DNA from: Heterostelium multicystogenum
Taxonomy: Eukaryota; Evosea; Eumycetozoa; Acytosteliales; Acytosteliaceae
DNA: 64,000 nt
Assembly (NCBI GenBank): GCA_003667245.1
Contig: RCNN01000092.1
Span: 58,614-122,613 of the forward strand
Direction: 5' to 3'
Shown here: positions 18,758-54,750 of the stretch, one piece after another
Layout of the letters: each line of letters starts with the position of its first letter
Position numbering within the stretch: position 1 is the stretch's first letter
Notes under the pieces: generated by a model
Seen by the model: only the letters and a program-made list of their open reading frames with translations
The model's database searches: none
What the model was told of the DNA's origin: nothing
Position numbers and translations under genes: made by a program

Positions 18758-18775
18758 CTTTTTAGGTGAAATTCA

Positions 18776-18785: not shown

Positions 18786-18831
18786 AATAGCAAAATCTCC
18801 ATTCAGTGGGACACTTTTGATGGAAAACTTT

Positions 18832-32547: not shown

Positions 32548-32620
32548 GGGCTTGTAGCTCAGATGGTAGAGCGCTCGCTTTAGCATGCGAGAGGTAAAGG
32601 ATCGATACCCTTCTAGTCCA
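32548..32620 (+). tRNA. tRNA-Ala (AGC), possibly decayed
   Basis: GGGCTTGTAGCTCAGATGG with a good A box. The CTCGC/GCGAG anticodon stem encloses AGC. The loop has eight bases (TTTAGCAT) instead of seven, the acceptor has one mismatch plus a G-T pair, and the T stem (AAAGG/CCCTT) has an A-C mismatch. Either one inserted T in a T run, or a gene losing function. A T5 run follows at 32625. Confidence 0.75.
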
Positions 32621-32645: not shown

Positions 32646-32655
32646 TTGCGCGCAT
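32646..32655. other. GC-rich near-palindrome 3' of tRNA-Ala
   Basis: TTGCGCGCAT, 25 nt downstream of the tRNA. One base from the perfect palindrome ATGCGCGCAT behind tRNA-Lys. Confidence 0.5.
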
Positions 32656-32668: not shown

Positions 32669-33070
32669 GCCAAGGCAGAATAGCTGATGTGGTATGGTAG
32701 TCTGCTTGTGACGCCTTGGGTTCGTGGGTTCGAATCCCGGGTTTTCCAGTTTTCCCCATACACTTCCAGGAAAACCCATGTACTTTCAAATCTGTATGAT
32801 ACCATCCCCGCCATGAAGAATATGTAAATTGACAGCGAGCCCTCAACTACGTAAAACCATTGTTGTACTCTTAAAATCTTCTGTCGCTTCGAAATACTTA
32901 ACAGTCCACTGTTGAAAACACCTTGCTCCAAATAATAATAGGCAGTCATGCCTCTATAAAATGATGGTCATCACAACCGGCCTGTGGTTGTAAAAAGAAA
33001 TCTGTAGGCTTCTAAATTCTACCTTAAATAAACAACTGTATGGTTATAACAACAAAAAAAAACAAACAAA
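32669..33070 (+). mobile_element. SINE-like element, copy A (full 5' end)
   Basis: About 400 bp ending in an A-rich tail. Near the 5' end TAGCTGATGTGG fits a Pol III A box, and GGGTTCGAATCCC at 32725 contains a perfect B box about 45 bp later. The body has no long open frame. Copies with well over 80% apparent identity lie at 44950-45316 and, on the minus strand, 49049-49473. It starts 49 nt after tRNA-Ala, on the same strand. The stretch GTGGGTTCGA equals the T-arm region of the tRNA-Lys at 44818, so the head may derive from a tRNA-Lys. No dictyostelid family name is known to me. Confidence 0.75.
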
Positions 33071-33373
33071 ATTCCAGATTTTTACGAATGTGGAAATTCA
33101 GTGAAATTCTTGGAACAATAACTGACTATTCTGCAAATTAGTTGGTGTAATTAGACCTCAACAACATCAAAAAAAATCATCAAAACAAGGTCTCTGGAAA
33201 TCAAAGTAAATGCTTTAAGGTACACCAAGGAGTTAACTATATTCTTATTTATAGTTGATATGGACATTGTAGATATTCACAATATATTCATCTTTTTTTA
33301 ACTTATTAATTAAATTTATTAGCTATTTTAAAAAAAGAGAGTGTAATTACAAATTTTTAAAATGTAAAATAAA

Positions 33374-33453
33374 GTTGTTAATCAACTTGATGGCTATTGC
33401 TATCCTATTAAATAAACCTTCATACTTCTTTATTACCTCTAAAAAAAAAAAAA
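33374..33453 (+). repeat. Retroelement 3' tail, family C
   Basis: GTTGTTAATCAACTTGATGG followed by AAATAAA, TTATTACCTC and an A run. Matches 45959-46042 closely. Only the last 80 bp of the element are recognisable. Same strand as the tRNA-Ala and SINE upstream. Confidence 0.65.
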
Positions 33454-34348
33454 TGTATTACCAAAGTATAAACAAAAGAACATCATTACATTTACCAGGG
33501 TTTTCTTTAAAGTTACTAAATTCTTAAACATCAAGTGATTCATTCTAATCAGTTATCATTTAATACAATAATTCATGTATGTTTGTTTTTTATATTTAAA
33601 AATTGTATGATCATTTCAAATTTTTAAATGAACATTGATCTGAAGTGTAAAGACTGAATTTTCAAGCTTAATTTTTGTTAAACTTTTAATTTTAATTTTA
33701 AAGTAAAGATATCCACACTTAATGATTAACCATGATACAAATTAAATACGAATCTTTTGATATCTTGTTAATATAATGGATCAGTTCTAAATTTTTTTGT
33801 ATCACTCATAAATTATAAAGATCTTTGCATTGACAACGATTGATCATTTGTCAGTTTGCATCAAAAGAAAGTAGTTTTCATTTTATTAATTGAATTTATA
33901 CTATTTTTGATTTTTTTTGTGCAACAATGATGTGGTCTATAATGTGCAATAAGAGATACCTAGTTATTTTGATGCTTTGTCAATCAAAAGATCCGTCATA
34001 ATTCTATATTTCTAATTCATGTGGTTAATTTAATTCTTTGTGAATTGGATGGTAGAATAGAATACACCGCCAACACGGGAGTGGAGGGTTGGTTGGGCGA
34101 TAATGGCTCATTCAAAGAGATATAATAGTTTAAGAACTCCTCTGATTGATGTTTGTAACTAGAGCTCAAGTATTAAAGCATCAAAAAGATTCAGTTTTCA
34201 ACAATACATTCATTTGTACATTTCTAATTGTATCAAACAAATAATATCTATCAATCAAATAAACATAAATAAATTACATATCATACATATATATTTCTAC
34301 ACTCCTGCCATTGATATATTTCTTGTTGTTTAATAACAATTGAAATCA
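33454..34348. other. Intergenic DNA
   Basis: About 0.9 kb of AT-rich spacer without coding signal, ending in the promoter and 5' UTR of the gene at 34349. The 300 bp between SINE copy A and the family C tail (33071-33373) are also featureless. Confidence 0.55.
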
Positions 34349-35869
34349 ATGACACCACAGCTAACATTCCTTAAGAAACTTCAGATTGTAAATATATATT
34401 TTAAATCATATCTTATAATCAACTAAATATGATATTTATTGATTACTATTTCTTCTTTTCTTATATTATTTATATATAGTTGCAAAATTGGAAACTGGGA
34501 GAAATAGATTCCAATGAAAATGATGAAACCATCAAGTATCTAAGTGGAATGCCAGAATATAAACATGTTTTTGAAATTTGCAAAGAACGAAAGGTTGAGG
34601 AAATTGTGGCTTTCCTTAGTGCTTTTCCCAGTGGTCATCATAAAGAAGTCATTATTCTTTGGAATGCTGTTTATAATATAATAAGAGTGAAAAATGTTGT
34701 AGGTTGAAGTAATTATTACTAAATAATAATAATATTAGTTGAAACTAAAAATATTTGATATTTAGGCGAAATATCCGTTAGATGTTGCTGATAAGGTCCA
34801 AGTGGAGAGAGGTCCCAAAAACAAAGAAAATTGGAATGCCAATTTCATTCGGCAGACCAACTCTTCCAAGAGAAAGCAAGAAACCCTGATCCAAAAACAA
34901 CTCGGATCGGAAAGACTTCAACAGGAGGCCATTCAAACACATCTGCCTTGAGTGTCACTTCTTCAAGATCCTACTCCAATGTATCTCTAACAAAGAGAGT
35001 TAGAAAGGTTCATGAAGATCAAACAACTAAACCAAATCAAGTTAGTTTCTAGAGATCCATCAAGAAGACCTGCTGCGTCATCCACCAAAAAAGTAAAGAC
35101 ACTTCCCTCACCTATTTCGGTAGCTTCCTCTGCAACTCCATCTCCACAATTTCAACAACCAGTCCAAACTTTTGTACCTTTATTATCTAGTATTCCATCG
35201 CAACCACTTCAGCCAATGTACTATCCATCTTGCAATCAATCTGCTGCACAGGTCAGTTCGACTCTTCCTTCATCACACGGTGAGCTGTCTTCTCCAAGCA
35301 TCCATCAACAATTCAACACATCCACTATCGTCAATGTTGATGAAGGAGATGTGAGGAGTGAATGTGAAGAAAGTAGCAACTACGATGAATAGTGAGTCCG
35401 AGAGTGAAAGTGAATCTGAGAGCGAATCTGAGAGTGCAAGTGAGCCAGAGAGTGAAAGCGAAGGTGAGCCAGAGAGCGAACCTCTGTTGGAACCAACCTG
35501 TCAACAATCTAATCCTCAATCCAACCATGTCGAACACACCGAGGTAGTGCCAACTTTATATCCAATTCCAAGCTCGATCGCCACTCCCCACCATATACTG
35601 ATACCTTCTCTATCAACTCTTCTCAAAACCAAATCAATTATCCAACCTACTATATCAACTATAATCAAAACAATACAACTGTAGCTCAAGGAATAGTTTC
35701 CGACCATGAAAGAAACAACCAATCGATGTCATTCTTCGATCCACTGTACTTTACAGGTGCAACGAATGACTATAACAATCAATTCTATTTCCATATCTCG
35801 GACAGTCAAGACACAAGCTTCTCTCCTAATCTATTCTTCAGCGATGGAGTATTTGGACAACTATCATGA
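34349..35869 (+). CDS. Unrecognised protein, helical N-terminus, disordered remainder
   Basis: Exon 1 (34349-34387) encodes MTPQLTFLKKLQI; the intron 34388-34479 joins in frame to LQNWKLGEIDSN. The first 80 residues are helical (VFEICKERKVEEIVAFLSAF, EVIILWNAVYNII). They remind me faintly of TFIIS-N/LEDGF-type helical bundles, but I do not claim it. A second intron near 34696-34765 leads to KYPLDVADKVQVERGPKNK, then a Ser/Thr/Pro/Gln-rich region, a Ser-Glu repeat at about 35385-35480, and an Asn/Tyr-rich end with FFDPLYFTG and FSDGVFGQLS at 35869. The frame changes near 34950, 35040, 35390 and 35600. The pieces link head to tail with no gap, so I treat them as one gene. The low-complexity tail is typical of dictyostelid nuclear or regulatory proteins. 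Confidence 0.55.
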
Positions 35870-36488
35870 TAATCTTATATACCAATAATAAGTTGCAACC
35901 AAAAACTTGCTTAAGTGCAATTGTTTTTTGAACTAACTTATCACTTGTTTCATTACTGTATATATATATATATCTATTATTAAATTGATATTAAATAAAT
36001 AACAACATCTGCACCTTTCAACTACCAAAAGGAGACATGTCTGCAAATTTCGTGATTATTCAAAAAGAAAACACCATTTAAAAATCAATTGGATCTAATT
36101 TATAAAACCACCAGGGGTAACACACAGACACTAAACAGCGTATGATATTTATTTGCATTCATTATAATCAACCTTTTACCCATTTTTTTTTAAAAGAACA
36201 TAACTTTTCATTTGCTCATTCATTCATTCATTAGTCTTTATTTATTGAATAACCTATCCTATTAATAGTATTGTTTTAATACTTATACATAAGATCATTA
36301 GATTAGATTAATGTAGTTCGAGGATTATAATATATAGTTATATATAATAATAGTTAAATTCGATTGTAATAGTTAATTAATAAAGTAAAGAAATTTTAAA
36401 ATAGATTCTATTTACTAAATAAAGATTATTCACTGAGTGATCTAATAACAAACTAATAAGATAATATAAAGAAAGAAAGAAAGAAACA
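35870..36488. other. Intergenic DNA
   Basis: AT-rich spacer with AATAAATAA near 35993 (possible poly(A) signal of the gene ending at 35869), CATT repeats near 36217-36231, and GAAA repeats just before the cystinosin start. Confidence 0.55.
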
Positions 36489-37522
36489 ATGCATAGTCAT
36501 GCAATTTCAATTATTTCAGCAATTGTCGGCTGGGCTTACTTCTTTGCTTGGTCGCTATCATTCTATCCACAATTATATTTGAATTTCAAAAAGAAAATCG
36601 TAATCTATCATTCTATTTAGTTATACTTACTATCATAATACTAAAACAACAACTAACTTCTTTATCTCTAATAGTGTAAGTGGATTATCTTTTGATTTTT
36701 TGTTGTTTAATATTACTGGTTATATATGTTACTCAGCGTACAATTGTGTGCTGTTTTGGGAGCCGCTCGTAAAAGAAGAGTATCTATCGAAATATGGACC
36801 ACCCATACCAGTGCAACCAAATGATATGTAAGTCTAATGAATCTGTTTATTACAATACTCTGAAAAATTTAATAACATTATTATATAGTGCATTCGCCTT
36901 GCATGCAGTAGTCATTACTGTTCTAACTATTATTCAATGTTTCATCTATGATCGAGCTGGACAAAAGAACTCACTCTATTCGATTTTAATTACAGTTGGC
37001 ATTTGGCTGTCTGTTTTCATTGTTGCTGGTTTGGGTGGAGGAAAGGTTGTCACCTGGTTGTGGTTCATTAACTACTTGAGTTACGTCAAGCTGTTCATTA
37101 CATTCATCAAATATGTGCCACAGGCTTGGATTAACTTTAAGAGAAAGAGCACAACTGGATGGAGTATTGGAAATGTTTTACTTGATTTCTCTGGAGGTAT
37201 TCTCTCACTACTTCAAATGCTCTTAGACGCAATCAACGCAGGTACTATCATCACCAACTGAATTCAATCCTATTCACAACCAGGATATTAATACTAATGA
37301 AATGTTATACGAAATACAATAGATAATTGGAAAGTATTCATTGGAGATCCTGTGAAGTTTGGACTATCGATTTTCAGTATTTTGTTTGACGTCCTATTTA
37401 TGATTCAACATTATGGTTTATATAGAAATGCACACCAGAAAACAGGATACCAACAAATTCAAACACCGCCCGACTCCTACGAAGATCTCGCACCAAAGAG
37501 TTTCAATGAGAAACAAACATAA
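36489..37522 (+). CDS. ctns: Cystinosin, lysosomal cystine/H+ exporter
   Basis: Four exons: 36489-36599, 36675-36827, 36899-37241 and 37323-37522, about 268 residues. PQ-loop 1 is WSLSFYPQLYLNFKKK leading into VSGLSFDFLLFNITGY. Then come PPIPVQPNDIAFALHA and PQ-loop 2 YVPQAWINFKRKSTTGWSIG with LLDFSGGILSLLQM. These match cystinosin throughout the seven-helix core. The long glycosylated lumenal N-domain of animal cystinosin is absent; the protein begins at the first membrane helix. The C-terminus carries GYQQI, equivalent to the animal GYDQL lysosomal sorting signal. One A too many near 36594-36597 breaks frame at the end of exon 1. Cystinosin exports cystine from lysosomes with protons. Confidence 0.93.
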
Positions 37523-38367
37523 ATTATTTATTTACTTTAATAGCAGTACAATTACATTTCATTTCCTCATGATTCAATGAAATGAGCACATTTATTCAAT
37601 ATCAAATAGATTTTTGATAAAGAGATTACCACTAATTTTTAGGAGTAGGTACAGTATGTATTAGTCTAGTCTAATTATCATCAGGTATCAATAGCAATAT
37701 CAACTATACCCCACTCTATCTCATAGGTTAGCTTAATATTGTGTTGATTGATTTGAGTTTGAAATTTAAGATAATTCAGTTACAAAAAGGTTATGTGGAC
37801 ACAAGGTTTTAGTGCGCCAAAATTTAAATTTTTGATGATTGCTCTTTCCCGCTCTTTTTTTTGTTTGAATGCAATAATAATAATTATAGGCAACATTTAC
37901 ATACTTGGTCTGATGAAATTTTATTTAAATAATTTTATACTTTGTTGATTCAACTTTCTCTCTATTGGCTTTCTTTATTCATTTCCTCATATACATAAAC
38001 CCAACTTTCAACTTTGTTAGTTTTCTTAGGTTTACACTTACTTTAAAAACACAAAAAGATTATATATATATTTTTAAGTAAATAATATTATAATAAACAA
38101 CTACTACTACATCAAATAACATTTACATATGTATATAAATCATTAAAATAACAACAACAACAAACAAACAAACAAATAATATCAATTAGAAAAAAGATCA
38201 CTTATTTAAGTATAATTGCTTTTCTAAATTTTTTAATACAATCAATACAATCCAATCCAATCAATACTCAACAAACCAAGAGTTCACTCTTTAGCTTCCT
38301 CAAACACTTTAATTTATTTATTTTTTCTATATTCATCTTTATCTCTATCTTTATAAAAAATTTTAAA
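37523..38367. other. Intergenic DNA
   Basis: AT-rich spacer and promoter of the FHA gene, with AACAACAACAAACAAACAAA near 38153. No coding signal. Confidence 0.6.
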
Positions 38368-41300
38368 ATGGCTGAAGTACAACAACAATCAGCTTATTTA
38401 ACATTGTTGGAAGACAACAAACCAACAAAGAAAATCACTTTAAAATCAAATAAACTAACCATTGGAAGGTAAGCAAAGAAACATTGTACCAATGACTTGG
38501 ACAACATATGGAAACTAACCCACCATCTCCAGTGATTTGAAAAGTAATATTAGAATTCATTTGCCTGGTGTATCATCAACTCATACAGTTATTCAATTAG
38601 AGAATGGATTGGTAAATATTAATAAAATCACAACTCACCATCTCTCGCTCAACTGTTCATTTTAAATTAACATGTACTTTATTTATCATAGGCAACCGTT
38701 TCAAATGCAAGCAAAATCAATCCAACCTTTCTAAACGACAAGAGTGTCCAAACTCCAACACAATTAAAAGATGGTGATATAGTTTCGATTATGGGTAGAA
38801 AATTCCAGTTCAACACCTCCCATCTCCAAGGCACACCAAAGACTCCCAAACTTTCAAAGGTTCCAATGAGTGAAAGAGTATGTTAACAACAACATGGTTG
38901 CAATCATATACTATAGTACTTACTAACACTTCACTATATTTTTAATTGTAGAAAAAGATACCTCTTCAACCACTTGATAATATTCTTTCAGTTGAAAATA
39001 ATAGCAACTCACCTTTGGCATCAAAGAAACCATTGGTTGCTCCCTCCACTGTCGCAAAAATCAATGTTTCAAAAGGAACTCAAATGATAAAGAAACAACA
39101 ACCCATTAAATTTGCTGAGCCAACTCCTAAGAAGACACCAATGCCTAACAGAAAGCAACAGGTGGAAGATCAGTTCTCCAGTGATGAAGACGACCACTCT
39201 CTCAACGAAAATGATATGTCTTCCCATCAAGATGTCATGTCGACACCGGGATCACAATACTCAACCCCAACAGCATCCAATGCATCTTCAATGTCTCCAC
39301 CCAACACTCCATACTCTGTTTACTCTAACAACTCGGCATTGTCGGCCAACTCAAAGACCAAATCTGGAACCAAATCCACACCTGGTTCAACGGTTCAATT
39401 CGACGTTGCCACACCAGCTCCCTCTACTGGCAAGCCCATTCGTGGTATCTTGAAGACTCCTCGTCCAAAATCATACGAAATGTCACCAGAAGGCACTTTA
39501 TCCATGTCTACTTTTATGAACTCTACCTCTGGCGACACCATTCCATTCCATCTTTCACAGAGTGTACTCAACTACCAACAAACTCCAATGAGACCCAATG
39601 CTAGTGTCATTGCTTCCAAGACACCAGTTTCTATTCTCAAATCATCTGTTGCCAAAGTTACAGAGCAACCATCCAGTAGCGCACCAACTCCAGCTAAAAA
39701 GATGGCCAAGATTGCTACACTAATCACACACTGGAGTTCAATAAGAATGAAGTCATCTTGGCTACCCCTGCCAAGAATGCCAGAATATCAACCAACTCAT
39801 CACCAATGTCAACCGAAGATTTAGAGATGGAGGACTTTGAACAAGATGTTTATGAAGAACCAGAGCAAGTATACGAAAGAAGAGCAAGTTCAAGAGGAAG
39901 AACAAGTTCAAGAGGAAGCAGAACAAGAGGAAGTTTCCACAAAGAATAAAAAGAAAAACAAGAAGAAGCAAAATAAGAAAGCTCAACCACTTGTTATTGT
40001 TCCAAGACATACTCCAGACGAGAAGAACCAAAACAAGCCCAATACATTCACACGTATCGATAGTACTTTGATCTCGCCAGCCTCTACTCCTGTTTTGCCA
40101 AGAGTTGCTCCTTTGACAAAGCGTACTGTTCGTGAGCAAATCAGAGCCACTGATAGCGATATCGTTACTTTCGATGAATCTTTTGCTAGTGACTACAGTA
40201 TCTTTACTCCAGCCTCTAGTCGTCGTGCTTCAACTTTGTCTAATAAGAGCTCACCCATGTTTACCCCACTCCATGGATCTACTACTCAATTGTCCAGACA
40301 ATCTACTCCTTCCTCTGCTCTCAGATCTTTGTTTGAATCCATTTCTTCTGCCTTCTCTTCAAAGTCAAACACTTCAACACCAATCAGAAATCAATTGGCA
40401 GAAATAGAAGCAGATGATACCATGAAGACTGAAGAAGATGAAGATCCCTTGATGACTGAGGAAGACGAAGAAGAATATTACTCTGCCAATGACAGTGTAT
40501 ATACTGAAAACACTGAAGTACCAGAGAATTTCGATGAACAAGAGGAGGAGTTGGAACAAGAAGAAGAATTGGAGCAAGAAGAGGAGCTTGACCAAGAATT
40601 GGATCAAGAAAGAGTTTGAGCAAGAAGTAGAATTGGAGCAAGAGGAAGAGCTTGACCAAGAATTGGATCAAGAAGAGTTTGAGCAAGAAGAAGAACTTGA
40701 CCAAGAACTTGACCAAGAATCGGATCAAGATGAGTTGGAGCAAGAGGAGTTAGAGCACGAAGAGATGGAAGAAAATGCCGATCAAGAGCTTCAATTTGAT
40801 ACAGATGAGCATTTTACAAATTCAAGTGCCTCTGGTCATTATGATGATGAAGATGAGTCTGAAGTTGCTCAGCTTGCCGAAGAGGCCGAGGAAGCCGAAT
40901 ATGAGGATGAACATACGAGTCTCACCTCGAACAAGAGGAGGAAGATGCATATGAAGCTATTGAAGAAGAGGTAGAAAATGATGTTGAGTTATTAGAAGAG
41001 GAGCAATTGTTTGAAGAGGAGGAAGAAGAAGAGTTTGATGAAGAGTTAGATGTGGAGTTCCAAGATGATGAAGATGATGAAGATGAGAATGAAGAGATGG
41101 AGTATCAAGAACTAGACTATGAAGAAGAAAACGAAGATGAAATTGATGATAACATGGAAACAAATTATGATCAAGAGTTTGATGAAATCCCATTTGACGA
41201 GGAAGATCAAGAGGTAGATGAAGAACAATACAATGAAGTACAAACTCCATCAACCACTCCAGTTAAGACTAAAACTCCAGTTAAAGTTCAAACTCCAGTA

Positions 41301-43248
41301 AAGGCCCAAACCCCAGTCAAGACTCAAACTCCAGTCAAGACTCAAACTCCAGTTAAGGTCCAAACTCCAGTCAAGACTCAAACTCCCGTCAAGATTCCAA
41401 ACCCCAGCAAAGACTCAAACCCCAGCTAAGGTTCAAACCCCAGCAAAGACTCAACTCCAGTTAAGGTCCAAACCCCAGCTAAGACTCAAACCCCAGCTAA
41501 GGTTCAAACTCCAGTCAAGACTCAAACTCCAGTCAAGACTCAAACTCCAGTCAAGACTCAAACCCCAGCTAAGACTCAAACTCCAGTTAAGGTCCAAACT
41601 CCAGCTAAGGTTCAAACCCCAGCAAAGACTCAAACTCCAGCTAAGGTTCAAACCCCAGCAAAGACTCAAACTCCAGCTAAGGTTCAAACCCCAGTCAAGA
41701 CTCAAACTCCAGTCAAGACTCAAACTCCAGTCAAGACTCAAACTCCAGCTAAAACTCAAACTCCAGTTAAGGCCCAAACTCCAGCTAAAACTCAAACTCC
41801 AGCTAAGACTCAAACTCCAGTCAAAACTGAAACTCCAGCAAAGTCCCAGACTAATAATACCCCCGCCACACAGTCAAAGAAACGTAAGAGTATTTCTCTT
41901 GATGATTTAGAAACCGATTCAAATTCAGCACAAGTTGGAAAATTTATTGTCCCAGAGTCATCACCTGCTAAGACTCCTATGCGTTCATTGAGAAAGAGCT
42001 TTGTTTCAACCATTGACAGTTTTGATCCAGATATGGTACATTCAGTCTCATCCAAACCACAAGAATTATTGTTTGAAGAATCTGTGAAAGATGAGACTTT
42101 TATCGAAGATCAAGTTGTTGCTGAACCTGTTTCAAAAATCCAAGAAAAAGAAAGCCAAGAAGGCTGTACCAGAAACAGTTATAGCTGAAATTCCTGAACC
42201 TATCGAAGAAGAGAGCGAGACCCCTGAGCCTGTAGTCATAGCATCTAAGAAGAGCAAGAGATCCAAGAAATCTAAGAGTTCAGAAGTCATTGCTGAAGAG
42301 GTAGAGGTAACTCCTGAACCTGTTGTTGAGAGTGAGGAAGTTGTTCAAGAGGTTCAAGTGCAACCAAAACAGTCCAGAAGATCAAAACGTATTACTGCTC
42401 CAGAGGTTGTAGAAGAGACAGTCGTTGAGGAAGAGATCCAAGAACCACCAAAGAAATCCAAAAAATCAAAGAAGGTCGTCGAAGTCGAAAAAGAACCAGA
42501 GGAAGTTGTAATTCCCGTTGAAGAACCATTAAAGAGATCGACAAGATCAAAGAGAATTACTGCTCCAGAGGTTGTAGAAGAACCAGTCGTTGAGGAGGAG
42601 GTCCAAGAACCACCAAAGAAATCGAGAAGATCAAAGAGAATTACTGAGCCAGAAGTTGTAGAAGAGCCAGTCGTTGAAGAAGAGATCCAAGAACCACCAA
42701 AGAAATCAAAAAAATCAAAGAAGGTCGTAGAAGTTGAAGAAGAGGATGTCCCTCTAGTTGAAGAGCCTCCTAAGAGATCCAGAAGATCAAAGAAGTTAGT
42801 AGAGGTTGCCGAAGAGCCAGAAGTCTCAGTTCCAACTAAAAAGTCCTCAAAAAAGCTTGCCGACTCCGCTGCAGATGACTCCAAAACAGTCAAATCCTCA
42901 AAGTCTTCAAAGAAGGAAGAGGTAGTGATTAAATCAACTAGTAAAAGATCAAAAAAACAACCAGTTGATGAAGCTGAACAAGAAGTTGAAGAGGAAGTAG
43001 AAGAGGTCAAGCCATCTAAGTCAACTTCAAGATCAAAATCAAAGAAACAACCAGTTGTTGAAGAAGAGCAAGAAGAAGTTGAAGAAGTTGTAAAACCATC
43101 CAAATCTAGATCAAAATCCTCAAAGAAACAAGAGGAAATCGAGGAGGAAGAGATTCCAAGCAAGCCAATCGTATCCAAGAGAAGTAAAAGAGCTGCTGCC
43201 GTTGTTGAGACCGTCGAGGAAAAACCAAAGAAGAAAACAAGAAAGTAA
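38368..43248 (+). CDS. FHA protein with CDK-site repeats, Ki-67-like layout
   Basis: Exons 38368-38468, 38533-38611, 38690-38877 and 38952 onward. The N-terminal FHA domain has KLTIGRSDLKSNIRIHLPGV, SSTH, NPTFLND and LKDGDIVSIMGRKFQF. Ser/Thr-Pro-rich disordered sequence follows, with GILKTPRPKSYE and a region around VTFDESFASDYSIFTP. Next are Glu/Gln/Asp-rich stretches (40540-41250), about 30 TPVK/TPAK hexapeptides (41268-41830), and a basic C-terminus of PPKKSKKSKK/RSKRITAPE modules ending EKPKKKTRK. TP-x-K is the CDK consensus. FHA plus many CDK repeats plus a basic chromatin-like tail is the plan of Ki-67, the coat of mitotic chromosomes, and the FHA pattern IRIxLPxVSxxH is also Ki-67-like. 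Breaks occur near 39730, 39890, 40616, 40950, 41420 and 42135. FHA is certain; Ki-67 equivalence is inference. Confidence 0.8.
41268..41830 (+). repeat. Coding minisatellite, 18-bp unit (QTPVKT)
   Basis: About 31 tandem 18-bp units of the form AAGACTCAAACTCCAGTC encode (T/V)QTP(V/A)K. One frame slip is present near 41420-41455. Each unit supplies one minimal CDK site. The repeat is nearly homogeneous, so the unit number probably differs between strains. Confidence 0.92.
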
Positions 43249-43390
43249 AATGATTTAAATCATTGCTTGAGCAATCCAACATGTACAGTTACCAAACACT
43301 CAATCTATCCTTTGTTGGAATTAGGTTGATTGTCATTTTTAATAAATTATTATAATATAAAATCTAACTTTATTGATTGAGTTGACTAGA

Positions 43391-44611
43391 TTATTTTCTA
43401 TGCCTGTGTCTCTTATCGTGATTGCCAGCCGATTTCTCTTGCTCTTTTCTTTGGTTTCTTTCTTCTCTCTTTTGTTGTTGTTTTTCTTTCTTATCTCTAT
43501 AGGCTTTCTTTATTTCTTCTTCATCTTCCTCTTCTTCCTCCTCATCTTCCTCTTCCTCTTCCTCTTCATCAGCTTCATTTTCTTCTTTCTCCTCGTCTTC
43601 CTCCTTATCACCATCTTCATCTTCATCTTCTTCATCATCGTCTTCGTCTTCATCTTCATCATCATCTTCATCCTCGTCATCTTCTTCCTCTCCATATTCA
43701 ATTTCTTGAACTAATCTGTTTGGATTGGAAATTAAACCATCTTCATCTTCTAAATTCAAGGAATTCAACTTGTTCAGTTGCTCTTCTTGACACTTTTTAA
43801 TGAAATCATTCTGTACATTGACAACCTCGGCACTATCTTTACACTTTGAATATCTTTCGAAGAGATCCTTATTTACTGTATAGAATGATGGTCCCCATTT
43901 AAATCCACTTAAAATTTGATGTCCTTCCTTATCAAATCCTGTAATGAATAAACATGCTGCTACTGCTTCAACACATGATAGTTTGAATGGTTTACCATAG
44001 TTGACTGGATTGGCGGCAATTAAAAATGGTACTAACATAGGAAAGGTAAGTAACATTATCAAAAATACAATAAACAATGCCTCACTACTTACATAATCTA
44101 TCATGACCACCTCTCATCTTGGCAAAAGGAATAGATTCTAACTTAGCCCATGAACAATCAACGACAGATATACCAAGTTGCTCAACTATATCTTTGTCAA
44201 TTGGTGAAATAGATTGTTTTCCATCAGGTCTGTACCATGAATAGTTGTTATTTTTCATTAGATATGATTGATATTAGTTAACCATTGATCACATAACATT
44301 GTTTTAAAACACTCTTAGAGTAAACTTACGTTAGAACGATTCCTCTAAACTTATTGCCAAGACTGATTGTTTTGACATAACCGAGTCTTTCTAATTTTTC
44401 TTCCGGTGCATTTCTTACTGTCGCACTGACCAAAATCCCACATAGCCAACTTAATTGGATAGCTTTGTGCCAGAATTCTGTGTTTCTCTTCACCCTTGCT
44501 TATTGAAAGATCAACTTGGTGAGTCTTGCCATTGTCTTCAAAAGATCTCTCTTTATGTTTACTAGTAGTAACTTTCTTTTGTTTATTTGATTGTGATGTT
44601 GACTTTACCAT
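43391..44611 (-). CDS. tsr3: 18S rRNA aminocarboxypropyltransferase Tsr3
   Basis: Three exons (44340-44611, 44093-44229, 43391-44031). Diagnostic Tsr3 motifs: LAMWDFGQCDSKKCTGRK, RGIVLTPDGKQSISPIDK, VVDCSWAKLE, RLLPFLIAANPVNYGKP, KLSCVEAVAACLFITGF and LSGFKWGPSFYTVN. Tsr3 adds the acp group to the hypermodified pseudouridine of small-subunit rRNA (m1acp3-psi) in late cytoplasmic 40S maturation. An RLI-like N-terminal motif and the SPOUT-like core are complete. The C-terminus has a very acidic Asp/Glu run (about 43520-43690) and then a basic KRHRHRK end. The T5 run at 44395-44399 breaks frame in exon 1. It converges tail to tail with the FHA gene, 143 bp apart. Confidence 0.95.
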
Positions 44612-44817
44612 CTTTCTGAATTTAGTCAGAATAAGTTTTTCGTTCGTTTAATTAACCAACATTACTAACCTGTCAATCAATAACATCATAATATAAAAGA
44701 ATGTTTGCTTCTATAATAAAGATTTTAGAATAAAGGGAATCATTTTATTTAGGATGAACAGATTGAATAGTATATTTATTTACAAAATTCATTATTATTT
44801 TATTTACATCATCGGAA

Positions 44818-44890
44818 GCCCGGTTAGCTCAGTCGGTAGAGCGCACGGCTCTTAACCGTGTGGTCGTGGGTTCGAGCCCCACATTGGGCG
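44818..44890 (+). tRNA. tRNA-Lys (CTT)
   Basis: 73 nt. Acceptor GCCCGGT/ATTGGGC with two G-T pairs, A box TTAGCTCAGTCGG, CACGG/CCGTG anticodon stem with loop CTCTTAA (CTT at 34-36), B box GGGTTCGAGCCCC. No T4 run follows within the next 30 nt. Confidence 0.95.
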
Positions 44891-44916
44891 TTCTTCTTTA
44901 ATTTAAAAAGACCATA

Positions 44917-44926
44917 ATGCGCGCAT
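44917..44926. other. GC-rich palindrome 3' of tRNA-Lys
   Basis: ATGCGCGCAT, a perfect 10-bp palindrome of alternating purine and pyrimidine, 26 nt after the tRNA. Nearly the same as the motif behind tRNA-Ala. Confidence 0.55.
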
Positions 44927-44949
44927 GAAGGATTAGATTTAAAATAGAA

Positions 44950-45316
44950 AGTCTGCTTGTGACGCCTTGGGTCGTGGGTTCGAATCCCGGTTTTCCAGTT
45001 TTTCCCCATACACTTCCAGTGAACCCATGTACTTTCAAGTCTGTATGATACCATCCCGCCATGAAGAATATGTAAATTGACAAGCGAAGCCCTCAACTAC
45101 GTAAACCATTGGTGTACTCTTAAAATCTTCTGTCGCAACAGTCCACTGTTGAAACACCTTGCTCCAATAATAATAGGCAGTCATGCCTCTATAAAATGAT
45201 GGTCATCACAACCGGCCTGTGGTTGTAAAAAAAAGAAATCTGTAGGCTTCTAAACCCTACCTTAAATAAACAACTGTATGGTTATAACAACAAAAAAAAA
45301 AAAAAAAAAAAAAAAA
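44950..45316 (+). mobile_element. SINE-like element, copy B (5'-truncated)
   Basis: Matches copies A and C from GTCTGCTTGTGACGCC onward, keeps the B box (about 44974-44990) and lacks the A-box end. It has a 12-nt internal gap relative to the others near 45137. It ends in an A run (45291-45316) and starts 60 nt after tRNA-Lys on the same strand. 5' truncation with a poly(A) tail is the mark of LINE-driven retrotransposition. Confidence 0.75.
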
Positions 45317-45366
45317 GTATCGCCTTATACATATATATATATATATATATATTCACCTGGATGATT

Positions 45367-45391
<25 letters not shown>
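45317..45391 (+). repeat. AT microsatellite and family B retroelement tail
   Basis: A TA dinucleotide run is followed by ATTCACCTGGATGATTA and about 25 A residues. The last 18 bp equal the 3' end of family B at 18868 and 49509 (minus). Only the terminal bases remain. Confidence 0.6.
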
Positions 45392-45408
<17 letters not shown>

Positions 45409-45958
45409 CTATATATCAAGAGCCACTTGATGTGGTTAATTATATACTTATCGTTCTTTATCATTCTCTTTACTAAGTATATAATTAACTATTCTACTTT
45501 AGTATAGCTATTTCTTGCTCTTTTGTCATCGAAATCCAAATTCCTTTTTTTTCACTTTTTCGCATTACACCTAGCTTCTTCGTTACCGCCCTTTTGGCAG
45601 TCACTATTCTATGCCCAGGCTACAGTTCCTAATCAACGTTTAGTAGGGCCGCTAAATGTTTGCCTCTTTCAAGCGTATGTCTGGGTGAATCATTAACTTA
45701 TTCAGGTACTGGAGCTCTCTGGTCCCCACCAGGCTGATGCAGGCAGCTTAGATGTGGAGGTACAGAATACTGCTTGTGCATAGAAATCATGGGTTAGCCT
45801 CACCATGTCGACTCTCATTGGCCGTCGTTAGAACTTAACCTAATTGAACAAGAGAAAATCTGCAGAAGGCGTGACTTTGACACTACGACGCTACCCCTTG
45901 CCTCATTCTCATCTTTGGTAGATAGCATCATTTTAGTTCCTCAAGATACAAACTCTCA
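45392..45958. other. Non-coding DNA of higher GC, probable element body
   Basis: After a TA run the sequence becomes clearly less AT-rich (for example AGTAGGGCCGCTAAATG near 45642) with no open frame. It runs straight into the family C tail at 45959, so it may be the non-coding body of that element. I found no second copy of this body in the window. Confidence 0.4.
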
Positions 45959-46124
45959 GTTGTTAATCAACTTGATGGTTCCAGCCATCCAATTAAATAA
46001 AGCTTAATACTTCTTTTATTACCTCCTTAAAAAAAAAAAAAATAAAATAAAATAGAAAATTGATGGCTCCAGTCATCCTAAAAATAAAGCTTAATACTTT
46101 AATTTTTTCTCTTTAAAAAAAAAA
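45959..46124 (+). repeat. Two family C retroelement tails in tandem
   Basis: 45959-46042 closely matches 33374-33453 and ends in A runs. 46070-46124 is a second, shorter and more diverged copy (TGATGGCTCCAGTCATCC, AAATAAAGCTTAATACTT, A run). They lie head to tail, both on the plus strand like the tRNA-Lys. Confidence 0.6.
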
Positions 46125-46136
46125 CAAATAATATTG

Positions 46137-46640
46137 GTGAAGTTGAGAGTCCTGTCACTGTATAGGTTGTTGGATACCACCCTAGAGCAATATCCCCAAT
46201 ATGGTACTTCCATTTTCTCTACCAGAGATTGTGAATATGTTCAAGTTCTTCTTGAAATCATTGACAGCAGCGGTGGTAGCTGATTCTATATTGTCTTTGG
46301 AAGCCAATGACAAGGAGAGCTAATGGTAATTGTACCAAGTTTTTATAGTATTTGGCTGACAACTTGGGGATGTTTGTGAAGTCAAGTGTCTTGTCACCAT
46401 ACAGATTGTTGGACACCATCTCCATATGGCTCTGATGATGAGCGGGTTAAAGTCAAGAAAGACAATTTGGTTCTCTTACCGGATTTGGTGGTAATAAAAC
46501 CACAATATCTTCTATATTGATTCTTGATTTTGGATAACAAGGTTAAAACAGAGAACTGCAAATGAAGAAGTAATGGTTGTATGGTTCTGAGGGAAGATTT
46601 ATTATAAATTAAATAAACTAGATCTGTTTGATTATAAAAA
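46137..46640 (-). pseudogene. Degenerate LINE ORF2 3' fragments
   Basis: 46187-46620 parallels the last part of the intact ORF2 at 49740-50160, including codons for LTLLSKIKNQYRRYCG and TKSGKRTKL, but is interrupted by indels and stops. 46137-46186 is a second short piece resembling 49913-49965. Orientation is opposite to the tails on its left. These are dead remains of the same LINE family. Confidence 0.75.
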
Positions 46641-46779
46641 AACAATTGGTAACGACCACTAAAATCATTGATAAAGTTTCATCCTGACTATCGGAGATCT
46701 CTACAAAATTTGCTCGAAATAATAGACAGAGTAAACATCATAAACCTTCATGTCATATTTGGGGTTTATTTATAATCTT

Positions 46780-48434
46780 TTAGATCAAGACTTTTTTACT
46801 CTTGGACATAGGTGACCATGTTGAAGAAGTAACTATACCACCCTTTAACTTGTCGCGCCCGCACACAACCAAAAAGTGATTGGTGTTGTTGTCTATTCTA
46901 CGTAGATGATAGTTCCCTAAAATGTGAATGTTGATAATAGTAGTTGGAGTGTCGCCAAAGAGTTTGCTCTCAAGAAATTCTTGTGACACCATATCGTTCG
47001 GACAGATGGTGGTATCACTGAGCTTGGGTGATCGATTACTTTGTCATAGTATCTAAAGTCTATCATCTCCACTCCATCAGGTATGGAGCCAATTTGAAGA
47101 GGTTGGTTAAACATTCTACTTAAATGGAGCTGTTTGCAACTAGATGGAATGACTCCTCGAGGAATATCGCAATTGAAGGCAAATAAAAGATCCAGTGATT
47201 CCACTCCATCAGGAATGGATCCGCTTTCAAGAGGGTGATTGAAGTTATCCGAAAGTATCAGCTTTTCTCACTTTGGGCAGTGAGTTTGGTGCAATTGGAG
47301 CATTGTATATCGATCCAAGTTGAAGTACATCCATGATTTCTCTTTCTGGAGTTGGAGGAAATATATCATTTAAAACATAACCAGTGCGTCCTAATTTAAG
47401 CGATTTCAAAAACGGGGGAAGTACATTACCTCTTAAATGAAGGAAAGTACTAAATCCAAAATCGAGATGAGTTATATTCGATGGAATTCGACTTTCAAAA
47501 GTGTAATTAGGTGGCAGCTTCAAACTTATTCTATTGACTTGTGGTATCAAATGAAGTTGTTTGATCCAGCTTGGTGGCAAATTCTCAAGAGCTCGAAGTG
47601 ACTTTGGCAACACACTAGGATCATCAATTTCAGGGAGATTCTCGTTGTAAAACACTATTTCGTCAAGATTGGGAGGTAGTGAACCAGGTTTAAATTGTTG
47701 ATCAAACATTCGTCCTAACTCCAAGTATTTCAAAGATGCTGGAAGTACGCCAGGAAGCAACGGTTGATTAAATCTTTCACCAAACATAAGTGTACGCAAA
47801 TTCGGAGGCAGACTCCCTACCTCCAGTGGCTGATTGAACATGATCGACATATCTAATTCTGTGACAGTTGACGGCAGAAAACCAAGTGGTAAAGGTTGAT
47901 CAAATTCATTTGTAAAGTGTACTGATTGGACATCAGATTGATGCAGTAGATTTCCAAGCCATCCAAGCTTAAAATCGAAACTTTCAGAGAATTCTACACT
48001 TACTACATCACTTGGTAGCCTCAGTAAATCATGATTATTAAGAGCATCCTCTAAACAAACAGAAATGAATGTTAGAACTATTCTTAACGATCGACTAGCA
48101 TTGACACTAACAGTCATCTTACCATAGTTAATTATATATCAGCTCTCACTTTGTAGATATCAAGATCAGCAGTATTGCAAATGCATAGATGACTTTTTTT
48201 CTGTATCGATTTAGAGTATTGTATTTGCTTGCTGTATGCGTGCCAATGAAAGTCTAGCTCTTCACTCAAACTAATCTCATTGTTGTAATTGAATACAACG
48301 TAGTTATCTCTCTCGTAGTACCATCTTCTGCATACCAAAGTGAAACTTATAATATCTAAATTATCATGTAGTTCTCTAATAATCTTATTTAATAGAATAT
48401 GTGATAAATATAGAGCTTTATTGGAATCATTCAT
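46780..48434 (-). CDS. F-box protein with FNIP repeats
   Basis: Exon 1 (48150-48434) encodes an F-box-like start: LYLSHILLNKIIRELHDN and SFTLVCRRWYYERDNYV. A GTGAGA-donor intron follows. Exon 2 (from 48048) has FNIP repeats of about 22 residues: FDQPLPLGFLPSTV, FNQPLEVGSLPPNL, FNQPLLPGVLPASL, FNHPLESGSIPDGV, FNQPLQIGSIPDGV. FNIP proteins are a hugely expanded dictyostelid LRR-like family. The F-box suggests an SCF ubiquitin-ligase substrate receptor; the target is unknown. Frame breaks near 47248 and 46985 separate the last repeats and the C-terminal FLVVCGRDKLKGG region. It sits between two retroelement clusters. Confidence 0.85.
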
Positions 48435-49048
48435 TATTTGTCAGGCGAGAGTGAATCAATGAATGTATGTTCATGACACTGCTACCTCTTTCTAAAGCTG
48501 TGTATTGCACTCATAAGATAATTACAAATGAAATTAATAAACACAATCAAGAAAAATTGAAATTTTTATGCTACAAGTAAGAGGTTTTGTTCATTTAATC
48601 TTATTTATAACTTTTTGTTGGGATTCCAATGTTGAGTTTAATCCTTCTGTCTATTCTCTCTTTACTCTTCCGCTAAAACATCTATTGTTGCTTCACTGTT
48701 TAATATACAAGTCTCTAGTATTTCGGTTTTTTATAATCTATAATCTGGTTACTTTACTTCAAACATTATCTTCATTTTTAAGTTTGAAACCAATGCAAAA
48801 TCAATGTTCTAATGAGTGATTTCAAGTCATTTTATTTGATCTTTCTTCTTTCTTTAGTCACAAGAGGATTTGTAACGAAACAAAAGACTTGAAATTACTA
48901 AATAATATATTTCATGTCAATTAATAAATCATGGTCTTTGATTATACATTTCTTTAATTAATCAATGGTAGATAATGAATATGAAATATTAGATTTTGAT
49001 ACTTACTTAAAAATCTATTGCTAAAACATCTTATTTTGTTTGTTGTTG
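48435..49048. other. Intergenic DNA
   Basis: AT-rich spacer. A small plus ORF (48568-48819) has no family resemblance. It probably holds the FNIP gene promoter. Confidence 0.55.
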
Positions 49049-49472
49049 TTTTTTTTTTTTTTTTTTTTTTTTTTTTGTTATAACCATACAGTTGTTTATT
49101 TAAGGTAGGGTTTAGAAGCCTACAGATTTCTTTTTACAACCACAGGCCGGTTGTGATGACCATCATTTTATAGAGGCATGACTGCCTATTATTATTTGGA
49201 GCAAGGTGTTTCAACAGTGGACTGTTAAGTATTTCGAAGCGACAGAAGATTTTAAGAGTACACCAATGGTTTACGTAGTTGAGGGCTTCGCTTGTCAATT
49301 TACATATTCTTCATGGCGGGATGGTATCATACAGACTTGAAAGTTCATGGGTTCACTGGAAGTGTATGGGGAAAAACTGGAAAACCCGGGATTCGAACCC
49401 ACGACCCAAGGCGTCACAAGCAGACTACCATACCACATCAGCTATTCTGCCTTGGGCATCTGCCTTGGGCGG

Positions 49473-49473
<1 letters not shown>
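49049..49473 (-). mobile_element. SINE-like element, copy C
   Basis: Full-length like copy A: A-box-like and B-box sequences (B box near 49390-49402), the same body, and a tail of 28 T on the plus strand. Its 5' end shows a short duplication of GCCCAAGGCAG. It is inserted at the poly(A) end of the family B tail at 49474-49570. Same strand as the LINE and tRNA-His further up. Confidence 0.75.
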
Positions 49474-49511
<38 letters not shown>

Positions 49512-49584
49512 CATCCAGGTGATCATAATTTATTAATTAAATAATAAATGGTGAGGGTCAGAACCTCACAGTGTACTATATATA
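49474..49584 (-). repeat. Family B retroelement tail
   Basis: On the minus strand GGTTCTGACCCTCACCATTT, then ATCACCTGGATGATTA and about 35 A residues. It matches the unit behind tRNA-His copy 2 (18832-18892). It therefore probably lay behind tRNA-His copy 3 before the LINE inserted between them. Confidence 0.65.
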
Positions 49585-49707
49585 TATATTCACGACACAA
49601 AGGGACAGTCGTGATTGTCCGAAATATATTTTTTTTTTTTTTTTCATTTTTCCCGTTTTCCTGTTTTTTTTTTTTTTTTTTTTTTGTATTCATATCCAAA
49701 TGAAATA

Positions 49708-52700
49708 TTAATCTATAAATGAACGCGGGAGCGCCAGATTGGGGATATCGCAACCAGAGATGGTGAAAATGTTCCAGTCTTTTTTGAACTCATTGATAGC
49801 AACGGTGGTGGCTGGTTCAGCAGTGCCTTTGGAAGTCAGCGATAAACAGAGCTTATGGTAATTTATTGCAACCAAGTTTTTATAGTACTTGCTTGACAAC
49901 TTAGGAATGTTAGTGAAGTCAAGTGTCTTATCACCATACAGATTGTTGGACACCACTCTCCATATGGCTCTGATTATGCACGCGGTTAAATGCAGAAACG
50001 GCAGTTTGGTTCTCTTACCTGATTTGGTATTTATAAAAGAGATGTTAGTGATAGACCAGTTTAGGAGATTGTAACCGCAATATCTTCTATATTGATTCTT
50101 GATTTTTGATAGTAAAGTTAACCCAAAAAGAGCAATGCAACCAAAGAAATAATGGTCATATGGCTTTGAGTCTATTGAAAGACCACACAGGACACAGTTA
50201 TGCTCTTCCCTGAGATGGTTAATGGGGAGAGCGTGGGCGAAGAAACGGAATATAACGTCCCGACAGGCCGGACCTTTGATTTTGGCTATGTTCTTGAACT
50301 GCTCATCAAAAGAGAATCTAGTCAGCAGGGAAATGGTACTTTGACCATCAGTTCTTCTGATGTAAGGATGATCCTTCTTAAACAACTTCCCGTAGATTTC
50401 ACTGAGGCTAGGGAGTTCATTGCTTGGGAGGCGTATAGGGGAACCATGTCGAGTGTTTGAGGCTAGTTTGTCTCTAAACTCAAGCCAGGGAAGATAATAA
50501 GACTTAACGACGATGGGAAGGTCATCAACGTTGATTTTGTAGGCCTTGAGGTCGGCCACGAGGTTTTTCCAATTTTTGAAATAACCAAAGTTTTTGTCCG
50601 AACCAAGGACTCTGTTGAAAACCCATATTTTATAGGCCTTCGATCTGAGCCTAAGGTCAAAGAGGTTAAAACCACCAACCTCCCAAGGGAAGCAAGACCG
50701 GTCGGAGGCCATTAAAGTTATGAAATTTGAAGATACAATCCTAGAGGAAGAGAAAAACCAATTAATCAGTTTGTTTAATTTTGTAAAATCTTCGTCCGAC
50801 GGAGACTCCAGGTAGAGATGATAGAAGAGCTTAGGCAAAACATATGAGTTAATGATGGCCGACCTAGCCCTAAGGGTTAGTGAAGGTCTTTTGAATAGGG
50901 AGACATCAGCTTTGATTTGATTAATGAGAGTACTTAGCTTAGATTCGTGACCTTTGGACCCAAACATCACCCCAAGGTAGCGCTCATTGGTAGTGGAGAC
51001 AGGGAAAGGCGACATGGATACATCAATACCATTGAGAGGGATAACTGTACACTTGGATGGGTTGATCCTAGCAGATGTGGCTAGTTTAAATTTATCAAAC
51101 CAACCAAGCACCAGGTCGAGCTCTTCGAAAGAGGAGTTGAGGGAGGCGGTGTCGTCTGCGAATTGGAGGAGCTTCACAAGGTCAACAACCGAGGGAGGAC
51201 CAATACGCCTTGTTGGAGATGGGCCGGACTTAAGACCGACAATATTCTTGTCAGCCAGAATGGCTCTAGCCAGGGCCTCAATGACCAAAACAAAAAGGGA
51301 GGCTGATATCGGGTCACCTTGTTTGGTGCCTCTATTGATTTTGAAGAAGTCTGTTGGAAACCCATTAACTAAGACATTAGCAAGCGAGTTTCTGAGCATG
51401 GCCATAATGAGCTTAACGAATGGAGCAGGTATCTTAACATGGTGCAGCACTCTTTCAATGGAGTCATGAGTGACAGAGTCAAAAGCCTTAAGCAAGTCAA
51501 AAAGGGTAATGATGGCCTGTATATTTCCCTGCTTAGCAGCCTCAATGATTTCTTTTAGGAGTATAGTATTATCATGAATAAGTCTACCTGGGACGAATCC
51601 ATTTTGGAACACATTGATTACTGCGTGCAGCACAGGTTCCAGCCTTTTGGTGACTATTTTACTCAACAGTTTGTAGTCAACATTAAGGAGAGTGATAGGC
51701 CGCCGGTTATCAATGCTAAGCTTGTCACCTTTCTTAAAAATGGTGGTAATAGATCCCATCTTAAACCTGTCCGGCATGGACTCAGGAGATTTGAGTAGGT
51801 CATTGAAAACACCAGTAAGAACGGGCGAGAGAACTTCCGAGAATGAGGAGTAGAAGGCACCTGTAAGACCGTCAGGCCCTGGCGACTTGGAAGGATCTGT
51901 AGACCGAATTGCTTCCATAACCTCATCTACCGATATTGGCTGACAGCGGAATAATTGGGAAACATGAGGTTCAATAATCCAGTGTTTCAGCAGTTCATCG
52001 TGAACCGAAGAGTCACAATCCGCCTCGGTGTATAAGTTCTTGTAATAAGTAAAGAAGGCATCACTAACTTCAAGAGGCTGGTTAACCACTGAGCCGGTTG
52101 CAGGATGCCTGATTTCGCCTATAGGAGGCTCAGACATTCTTCTCTTTAGGGCACGGGTGAGGGACAATGAGGGGTATTCGCCAGATATTAGATCATCATT
52201 AAATCTGGCACAGTACAACATATTCTTTTTCTCTATCAAGTCATCAAGTTCTGCTTTTATGGAGCAGTACTCTTCTGAGGCGGGAGGAAGCTCAGAGAGC
52301 CTCATATTTAAATGGTGAATGCTATTAATAGTGGATCTCTGTACAATCTTTTGAAGTTTAGCAATAGATTTCGCCAACTTACTTTTGACGCTGAGCCACC
52401 TGTTACAGGACCACTCAGCGTTACCATTAGATAAAAAGCCTGTAACATAAGTCCTAACCTTGCTATCAGAGAGGACATTTTTGTCAAGTACCCATCTTTT
52501 ACCACACTTGATTGGAGGTTCAAGCCTAAGCGAGCGCAAGATGATAGGGCAGTGATCAGATTTGGTGTGATTGAGCCTGGACAAGACAGAGCCTTGACAC
52601 ATGCTGCTGTTGACATAGAGTCTGTCAAGTCTGCGGCTGACTTCCTTGGGGAGTCCATGAATGGAGCACTTCCAAGTAGACAAGTTAGTCGCAGCACCAG

Positions 52701-54428: not shown

Positions 54429-54718
54429 TGTAAGTATTAGAATAACACTACCAAGGATACACGAGGATACACCTTGGATACGCAGAAAGGATGAAGATTG
54501 ATTGTGGATAGAAAGTAAGCAGATAGAGGATACAAATATTATATAAACCCGATGACCAAGCGAAAACAAATGAATCCAGCCTAGCTTGTCACTATAACAC
54601 TAAAACAAGACTAACGCTACAAGGATGACAATAAATAGGAACAGATAATAACTTTATATGTATATATATATAAATCGGGTAAAGAGGTGAAGTAACGGCT
54701 TTTGTTGTTGTATATTCA

Positions 54719-54728
54719 CCGCACGCGG
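54719..54728. other. GC-rich near-palindrome 3' of tRNA-His copy 3
   Basis: CCGCACGCGG on plus, 22 nt from the tRNA 3' end. It abuts the proposed LINE target-site duplication. One base from the CCGCATGCGG behind copy 1. Confidence 0.55.
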
Positions 54729-54750
54729 GAACTAAAATTACAAAATTAAG

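Follow-up and report, generated by a model that had tools for sequence, protein, structure and literature searches.

A probable tRNA-derived short interspersed element downstream of tRNA genes in Heterostelium multicystogenum

A family of short interspersed elements (SINEs) was identified in a 64,000-nucleotide stretch of Heterostelium multicystogenum DNA (contig RCNN01000092.1, positions 58,614 to 122,613; G000:C92:58614-122613 in the assembly as searched), here called the window, in which three copies lie behind transfer RNA (tRNA) genes. Judged from its sequence, the element is very probably a tRNA-derived, non-autonomous SINE of about 400 bp, presumably driven by RNA polymerase III (Pol III) and mobilised to the strip behind tRNA genes by LINE-A, a TRE3-like long interspersed element (LINE). 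This reading draws on the anatomy of the unit, signatures of target-primed reverse transcription (TPRT), position and orientation relative to tRNA genes, a strip which is common with LINE-A, and two composite insertions.

Anatomy of the element in the window

The three copies, their parts and their target genes are located as follows.

32669..33071, + strand: SINE copy A, full length, body 32670-33052 and A tail
32681-32692 and 32727-32737, + strand: A box and B box of copy A
44950..45316, + strand: SINE copy B, body 44950-45290 and tail, 5'-truncated at unit position 30
49049..49457, - strand: SINE copy C, full length, body 49075-49455 and tail
49451-49378, - strand: tRNA-like head of copy C, with A box 49444-49433 and B box 49399-49389
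49376-49372, - strand: internal run of five thymidines (T5) of copy C
49155-49136 and 49123-49105, - strand: tail hairpins of copy C
49458..49473, - strand: partial repeat of the SINE 5' end and LINE-A target-site duplication (GCC 49473-49471, then GCCCAAGGCAGA)
32548..32620, + strand: tRNA-Ala gene, target of copy A
44818..44890, + strand: tRNA-Lys gene, target of copy B
54750..54821, - strand: tRNA-His gene, original target of copy C

The original prediction, made from the letters of the window, had proposed three copies of about 400 bp with a common body and an A tail, and the alignment bears this out, with copies A and B being 96.1% and 94.9% identical to copy C. The proposed boxes were recovered as well, TAGCTGATGTGG in copies A and C and GGTTCGAATCC in all three, and copy B was rightly described as 5'-truncated. 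Copy A starts 49 nt after tRNA-Ala on the plus strand, as had been stated; for copy B the distance to tRNA-Lys is 59 nt and not 60. Copy C is located in a pile behind tRNA-His, as had been recognised, with a complete LINE in between. Its extent was corrected, as the 16 nt of 49458-49473 formerly assigned to it are not body, but the partial repeat and LINE duplication listed above. For tRNA-Ala (32548-32620), the ARAGORN output shows an odd loop and no amino acid. Partial repeats of the SINE 5' end directly before the unit were noticed by inspection in five full-length copies (loci L020, L023, L044 and L068, and window 49458-49473) and perhaps derive from template jumping.

Full-length units of about 400 bp start with (A)GCCCAAGGCAGAATAGC and end with TGGTTATAACAAC followed by the A tail. 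The head of copy C matches a covariance model of 29 host tRNA genes over its full length (positions 1-73; 27.8 bits, E 5.5e-8). In full-length copies the unit begins 7 nt before the tRNA-like fold, which is where a Pol III start would be expected. A B box with at most one mismatch is present in all 50 head-bearing copies less than 300 bp from a tRNA gene.

Size and age of the family

The 29.7-Mb assembly with its 528 contigs was searched with a head and a tail pattern, allowing up to three substitutions. This gave 65 head and 62 tail matches and none for the reversed patterns, by which chance is excluded. The matches group into 71 loci, three of them in the window, and the DNA around the other 68 was analysed as well. 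In a BLAST-type search 40 of 103 candidates were scored, so the SINE counts given here are lower bounds; copies overlooked by the patterns or the scoring stand outside all of them. A SINE row was defined as covering at least 60 unit positions with at least 90% identity to copy C. The 77 rows correspond to about 75 insertions by hand count, with L015 and the pair L065/L066 each counted once. The start at unit position 1 is shared by 54 of the 77 rows, and 70 reach position 378 or beyond. Among the 66 longer rows the median identity is 98.4%, which indicates a young family, and diverged SINE fragments (69-95%) are located behind a number of young copies.

Position relative to tRNA genes

In 50 of the 77 rows the SINE follows a tRNA gene downstream at a distance of at most 160 bp (median 72 bp), with 47 of them at 44-126 bp and the remaining three at -1, 151 and 151 bp. 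Every one of the 50 tRNA genes located 160 bp or less from a SINE end lies upstream of it in the same orientation, and the other three arrangements do not occur. If 300 tRNA genes are assumed, about 0.03 of 77 copies would be expected by chance in the strip from 44 to 126 bp. The link to tRNA genes, which had been proposed from three copies, was in this way recovered genome-wide, with most of the other rows in piles behind a tRNA gene; a scattered SINE with chance tRNA neighbours is ruled out by the 50 rows in the same-strand downstream 160 bp.

Among the target genes, 18 amino acids are represented by 23 named anticodons, and ARAGORN left some further genes unnamed (own count). Counting was also performed from the side of the tRNA genes, of which 63 were scored and ten on contig C17, which may be mitochondrial, were left out. 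Of these 53, 13 carry a SINE within 160 bp and nine a LINE-A 3' end within 7.5 kb. Among 44 near copies, the distance to the tRNA gene is independent of identity (Spearman -0.04, p 0.81).

After removal of later insertions, about 63 of the 75 insertions fall into the strip, namely the 50 direct ones and 13 of the other 25. Four copies are displaced behind LINE-A (copy C, L011, L017 and L025), and their first aligned base was calculated at 68, 79, 58 and 66 nt behind the tRNA gene, respectively. For copy C this gives an original position about 65-68 nt behind tRNA-His; the LINE-A duplication at this site is AAAAGCCG, the As of which could be tail. In L024, LINE-A lies inside a truncated SINE (inspection). 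Split or tandem copies were restored to the strip in L021, L028, L045 and L027, as were L015 and the composite L041. In L003 and L033 the SINE is located behind a gypsy-type long terminal repeat (LTR) element, beyond which tRNA-Pro and tRNA-Ile were found. Nine more insertions, left outside this count, have a same-strand upstream tRNA gene (L018, L026, L031, L038, L049, L064 and remnants in L004, L033 and L039).

Signatures of target-primed reverse transcription

A target-site duplication was detected by a strict test in 36 of 72 rows, in 33 of them with a length of at least 8 nt (range 8-15 nt). When flanks were re-paired among copies as a control, duplications of at least 8 nt occurred in a mean of 0.65 and a maximum of 2 cases. 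Together with the A tail, these duplications are the mark of TPRT expected of a tRNA-derived SINE. Copies are 5'-truncated at various positions, and in L015 the 5' part is inverted, as in twin priming; its 3' flank is an 11-nt match to tRNA-Lys +43 to +54. For 20 displaced rows the target site was searched over 200 nt, where re-paired flanks (n=572) reach at least 9 nt in 41, at least 10 nt in 11 and at least 11 nt in four cases. Due to this noisy control, only the matches of 11-13 nt (L015, L027 and L028) stand alone, and those of 8-9 nt need other evidence. In L024 a computed match of 7 nt was set aside for a 9-nt repeat found by inspection.

Layered piles

In loci with at least two distinct same-strand SINE copies, the least diverged copy is the one nearest to the tRNA gene in 12 of 13 cases (sign test p 0.0034), the exception being L061. 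As split copies, L045 and L067 are not among the 13; treating L067 as two copies, with the nearer part being the more diverged one, gives 12 of 14 (p 0.013). Insertion thus tends to occur directly beside the tRNA gene, displacing older elements outward, and such age-layered piles could serve as an insertion record.

LINE-A, the probable TRE3-like partner

The window contains one complete LINE-A and its remnants, with the following features.

49500..54695, - strand: complete LINE-A, a TRE3-like non-LTR element separating tRNA-His from copy C, 5' end by inspection
53241..54569, - strand: LINE-A open reading frame (ORF) 1, no Pfam match, 4-nt overlap with ORF2
49708..53244, - strand: LINE-A ORF2, endonuclease (Exo_endo_phos, PF03372) and reverse transcriptase (RVT_1, PF00078)
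49614-49590 and 49569-49551, - strand: LINE-A 3' hairpins
18827..18890, + strand: LINE-A 3' remnant, 68 nt behind tRNA-His 18687-18758
45352..45393, + strand: LINE-A 3'-end remnant (TTCACCTGGATGATT and an A run) behind copy B, by inspection

LINE-A encodes an APE endonuclease and a reverse transcriptase in ORF2 behind ORF1 and is inserted downstream of tRNA genes in the same orientation, which makes it TRE3-like by domains and insertion sites. ORF2 shows one loose Cys/His pattern at residue 1016 and no Pfam zinc finger, and the best-scoring protein found is a partial Acytostelium reverse transcriptase protein with 44% identity. At least four copies carry a stop-free ORF2 with 99-100% identity, as found in a genome scan for ORF2 relatives in which 39 of 136 candidates were scored. 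In eight LINE-A copies no other insertion separates the element from its same-strand tRNA gene; these begin 51-84 bp behind the gene, with 54 bp for the copy in the window. The SINE had been predicted to be a non-autonomous element using the tRNA-linked sites of the LINE, and the window's LINE-A does use the same sites. A further LINE-A fragment (46221-46591, - strand, 74% identical) is located near copy B.

The 3' ends of both elements share two hairpins in the same order, followed by CTGNATGRTTA before the A tail. Their alignment scores 46.5 compared to 27.2 +/- 4.7 for shuffled sequences, of which 2 of 3000 were as good (transition-weighted scoring). A control with other A-tailed genomic stretches, in which 6 of 51 reached the score and all six were SINE, was not used. 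LINE-B, a second LINE family (best rows 38-40% identical in ORF2), was rejected as the source of the tail, since its alignment scores 32.0 and 1791 of 3000 shuffles were as good.

In two loci, SINE and LINE-A sequences are joined within one insertion. L041 consists of a LINE-A 3' piece, preceded by a short inverted LINE-A piece and joined to a SINE without its first 7 aligned nt; a single 9-nt duplication (TCTCTGTCC), from tRNA +49, surrounds the whole. L020 comprises a complete SINE followed by the last 76 nt of LINE-A, 44 nt behind tRNA-Glu, again with a single 9-nt duplication (GATTTGAGC), and the SINE alone has no target-site duplication. Both composites most plausibly arose by template switching from one RNA to the other, SINE and LINE-A, within a single reverse-transcription event, and less plausibly from sequential events.

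Proposed mechanism and alternatives

In the proposed mechanism, a SINE RNA of about 400 nt would be transcribed from the element's own A and B boxes, presumably by Pol III, starting at AGCCCAAGG. The LINE-A enzyme would directly recognise the LINE-A-kind 3' end of this RNA, with its two hairpins, CTGNATGRTTA and A tail, and would nick the DNA some 44-130 bp downstream of tRNA genes, which it may sense. The complementary DNA would then be made by TPRT in the same direction as the tRNA gene. As any newcomer would insert between this gene and the older elements, piles would form with the youngest element nearest to the gene.

Several observations weigh against this reading. Half of the tested rows (36 of 72) lack a target-site duplication by the strict test. 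The similarity between the tails of SINE and LINE-A consists of three short blocks, and with a simple match/mismatch scoring 10 of 1000 shuffles were as good. The duplications around the composites are 9 nt long, a length which is reached by 41 of the 572 re-paired flanks (200 nt). Regarding position, no tRNA gene was found in the 2.4 to 5.4 kb upstream of L034, L051 and L063, and the proportion of copies within 160 bp is 7/14 at 99% identity or more, 23/29 at 98-99%, 9/14 at 97-98% and 6/9 below 97%, by which the youngest copies are not the nearest. When the head was searched against Rfam, the matches up to E 10 did not include the tRNA family, but only one of 13 nt to tmRNA of the same clan with 6 bits. 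Finally, the T5 run after the head occurs in 51 of 69 copies (T6 in 10, T4 in two, no match in six), and 60 of 71 host tRNA genes have no T run longer than five within the 45 nt that follow them, so that Pol III might stop before the SINE body. Some RNA does pass the internal T5, as full-length copies exist.

Another enzyme, either LINE-B or an unseen TRE3 relative, might mobilise the SINE, with LINE-A merely sharing the landing strip. LINE-B is also found in the strip, inserted inside the SINE copies of L028 and L065/L066, SINEs are known to be recognised in two ways, one of them through a bare poly(A) tail (PMC3414825), and the scan for ORF2 relatives scored 39 of 136 candidates. This explanation is nevertheless unlikely, as the LINE-B tail aligns no better than shuffles, LINE-A is the partner joined to the SINE in both composites, and its four copies with nearly identical, stop-free ORF2 are at hand.

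It is also conceivable that the SINE integrates broadly and that selection in a gene-dense genome leaves copies near tRNA genes, given that strong selection on mobile elements has been described for gene-dense dictyostelid genomes (PMC5006619). Selection of this kind predicts no single strand or side, yet all 50 tRNA genes are upstream and on the same strand, and the distance is unchanged with identity among the 44 near copies, which makes it a very improbable cause of the pattern.

The strong sequence conservation and the Pol III boxes would fit a host small-RNA gene family beside tRNA genes as well; with target-site duplications, A tails, 5' truncation, the 5'-inverted L015, insertions into older copies and decayed remnants, this is hardly credible. 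Lastly, that the SINE is one end of a larger autonomous element has next to no probability: the common start in 54 and the common tail in 70 of 77 rows and the lack of any stop-free frame beyond 60 codons in copy C, the only copy checked for this, oppose it, just the tail resembles the LINE-A 3' end, and no longer unit was seen. No ORF or LTR was seen, either of which the original prediction had named as a sign of such an element.

Comparison with known systems

In the literature searched, which covered few subscription journals, no description of a dictyostelid or Polysphondylium SINE, or of a SINE behind tRNA genes, was found, in agreement with the earlier statement that no described dictyostelid SINE with this habit was known. 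The words SINE and short interspersed are missing from the main text of dictyostelid retrotransposon papers where these were searched. RepeatMasker SINE counts of 88 for D. discoideum and 57 for D. purpureum are given without a description in passages of PMC4683709. A tRNA-derived SINE with a strict tRNA-gene address appears to be new, its parts being of known kinds. Like other tRNA-derived SINEs with LINE-related tails, it has a head with A and B boxes, an unrelated body, a LINE-like tail, an A tail and target-site duplications. Most SINEs are not known to have such a narrow genomic address.

The closest parallel in position is TRE3 of Dictyostelium discoideum, which inserts on the same side, in the same orientation and at the same distance as the SINE (40-150 bp downstream; passages of PMC5911963). 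TRE3 is autonomous with two ORFs, whereas the SINE has no ORF and a tRNA-like head. Tandems of TRE elements behind one tRNA gene, resembling the piles found here, are described in passages of PMC5391098.

The R2 and R2/R1 SIDEs of Drosophila are likewise non-autonomous and share the site and the 3' end of a target-specific LINE (passages of PMC3414825). They arise by internal deletion of the LINE and use the R2 ribozyme and co-transcription with 28S, whereas the SINE head is tRNA-like. An R2-type SIDE was considered and rejected, since the 5' end of the SINE is tRNA-like and not LINE-derived, and the LINE-A start looks unrelated by inspection.

Skipper-2, a chromovirus of dictyostelids, also inserts downstream of tRNA genes (passages of PMC5006619). 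As an LTR element with integrase it is not a relative of the SINE; the gypsy-type element found here is a neighbour in the strip, and it resembles the published Skipper-2 by its position behind tRNA genes.

B boxes behind tRNA genes and meaning of the address

In compact genomes, autonomous retrotransposons are known to find a safe haven at tRNA genes; in the strip behind them, few host genes would suffer damage. That a short non-coding parasite occupies this strip too suggests an address determined by the borrowed machinery and not by the passenger RNA, and makes the SINE a small, countable reporter for target choice.

By its head, the SINE plants a Pol III B box by host tRNA genes. Of 15 tRNA genes that lack a SINE row within 300 bp, 14 have no B box in the next 400 bp, and the fifteenth has the B box of a SINE displaced by LINE-A. 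Each of the 50 tRNA genes that are followed by a head-bearing SINE has gained a B box, which for the 47 nearest is located at a distance of 39-210 nt from the gene. In D. discoideum, some 80% of tRNA genes have an external B box about 100 bp further downstream than the internal one (PMC5911963). It is doubtful that these external B boxes, for the origin of which no explanation is known, are worn-down heads of tRNA-gene-targeted SINEs of the kind described here. If they were, a SINE which supplies its target with a B box of its own could make further insertions at that site more likely. With the B box planted by the SINE, it can be tested whether transcription of tRNA genes is affected and where external B boxes come from.

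A palindrome behind tRNA genes

Between tRNA genes and insertions, short host palindromes were identified in the window, for which no strand is assigned.

32646..32655: palindrome-like element TTGCGCGCAT, between tRNA-Ala and copy A
44917..44926: palindrome ATGCGCGCAT, between tRNA-Lys and copy B
54719..54728: palindrome-like element CCGCGTGCGG, behind tRNA-His
9260-9269 and 18776-18785: further palindromes

The 10-nt palindrome has the form CCGCATGCGG, or ATGCGCGCAT behind Ala, Lys, Met and Phe genes and single genes labelled Gly, Leu and Tyr. With at least 8 of 10 positions matching, it starts 12-27 nt after the 3' end in 67 of 71 tRNA genes, and this score was reached in none of 70 controls (60 nt upstream, or +81 to +140). 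tRNA genes carry it whether or not a SINE follows, and where one does, the palindrome comes first in 46 of 46 cases. As a ruler for insertion it was rejected, since the distance measured from it has a standard deviation of 25.8 bp, no better than the 26.1 bp from the tRNA end. Genome-wide, exact CCGCATGCGG is hardly enriched (39 sites vs. 30 for the reversed control), and AATGCGCGCAT has 51 strand matches (37 sites) vs. none in the control. The literature search yielded nothing resembling this palindrome, which could belong to the Pol III or boundary elements of the host.

Neighbouring elements and genes

The gypsy-type LTR element is located between tRNA gene and SINE on contigs C217 and C77, with integrase, reverse transcriptase and chromodomain seen on C217. 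By inspection it starts some 56-57 nt behind tRNA-Pro and tRNA-Ile in L003, L085, L087 (C217) and L088 (C77), and a similar element in the opposite direction occurs in L086. The LINE-B insertions in L028 and L065/L066 lie in SINE heads behind tRNA genes, and L021 has only the first ~460 nt of LINE-B.

L071 and L072 (contigs C492 and C493) have identical SINE insertion flanks, with a tRNA-Phe gene in one and a tRNA-Leu gene in the other, and the LINE-B relative behind one of them has 16 stops. Possibly they represent a decayed duplicate of one insertion. By one compared gene, myotubularin, the host is a dictyostelid close to Heterostelium album (Polysphondylium pallidum) PN500 but probably distinct from it: the protein encoded in the window shares 91% identity with its PN500 counterpart and 76% with the one from Acytostelium.

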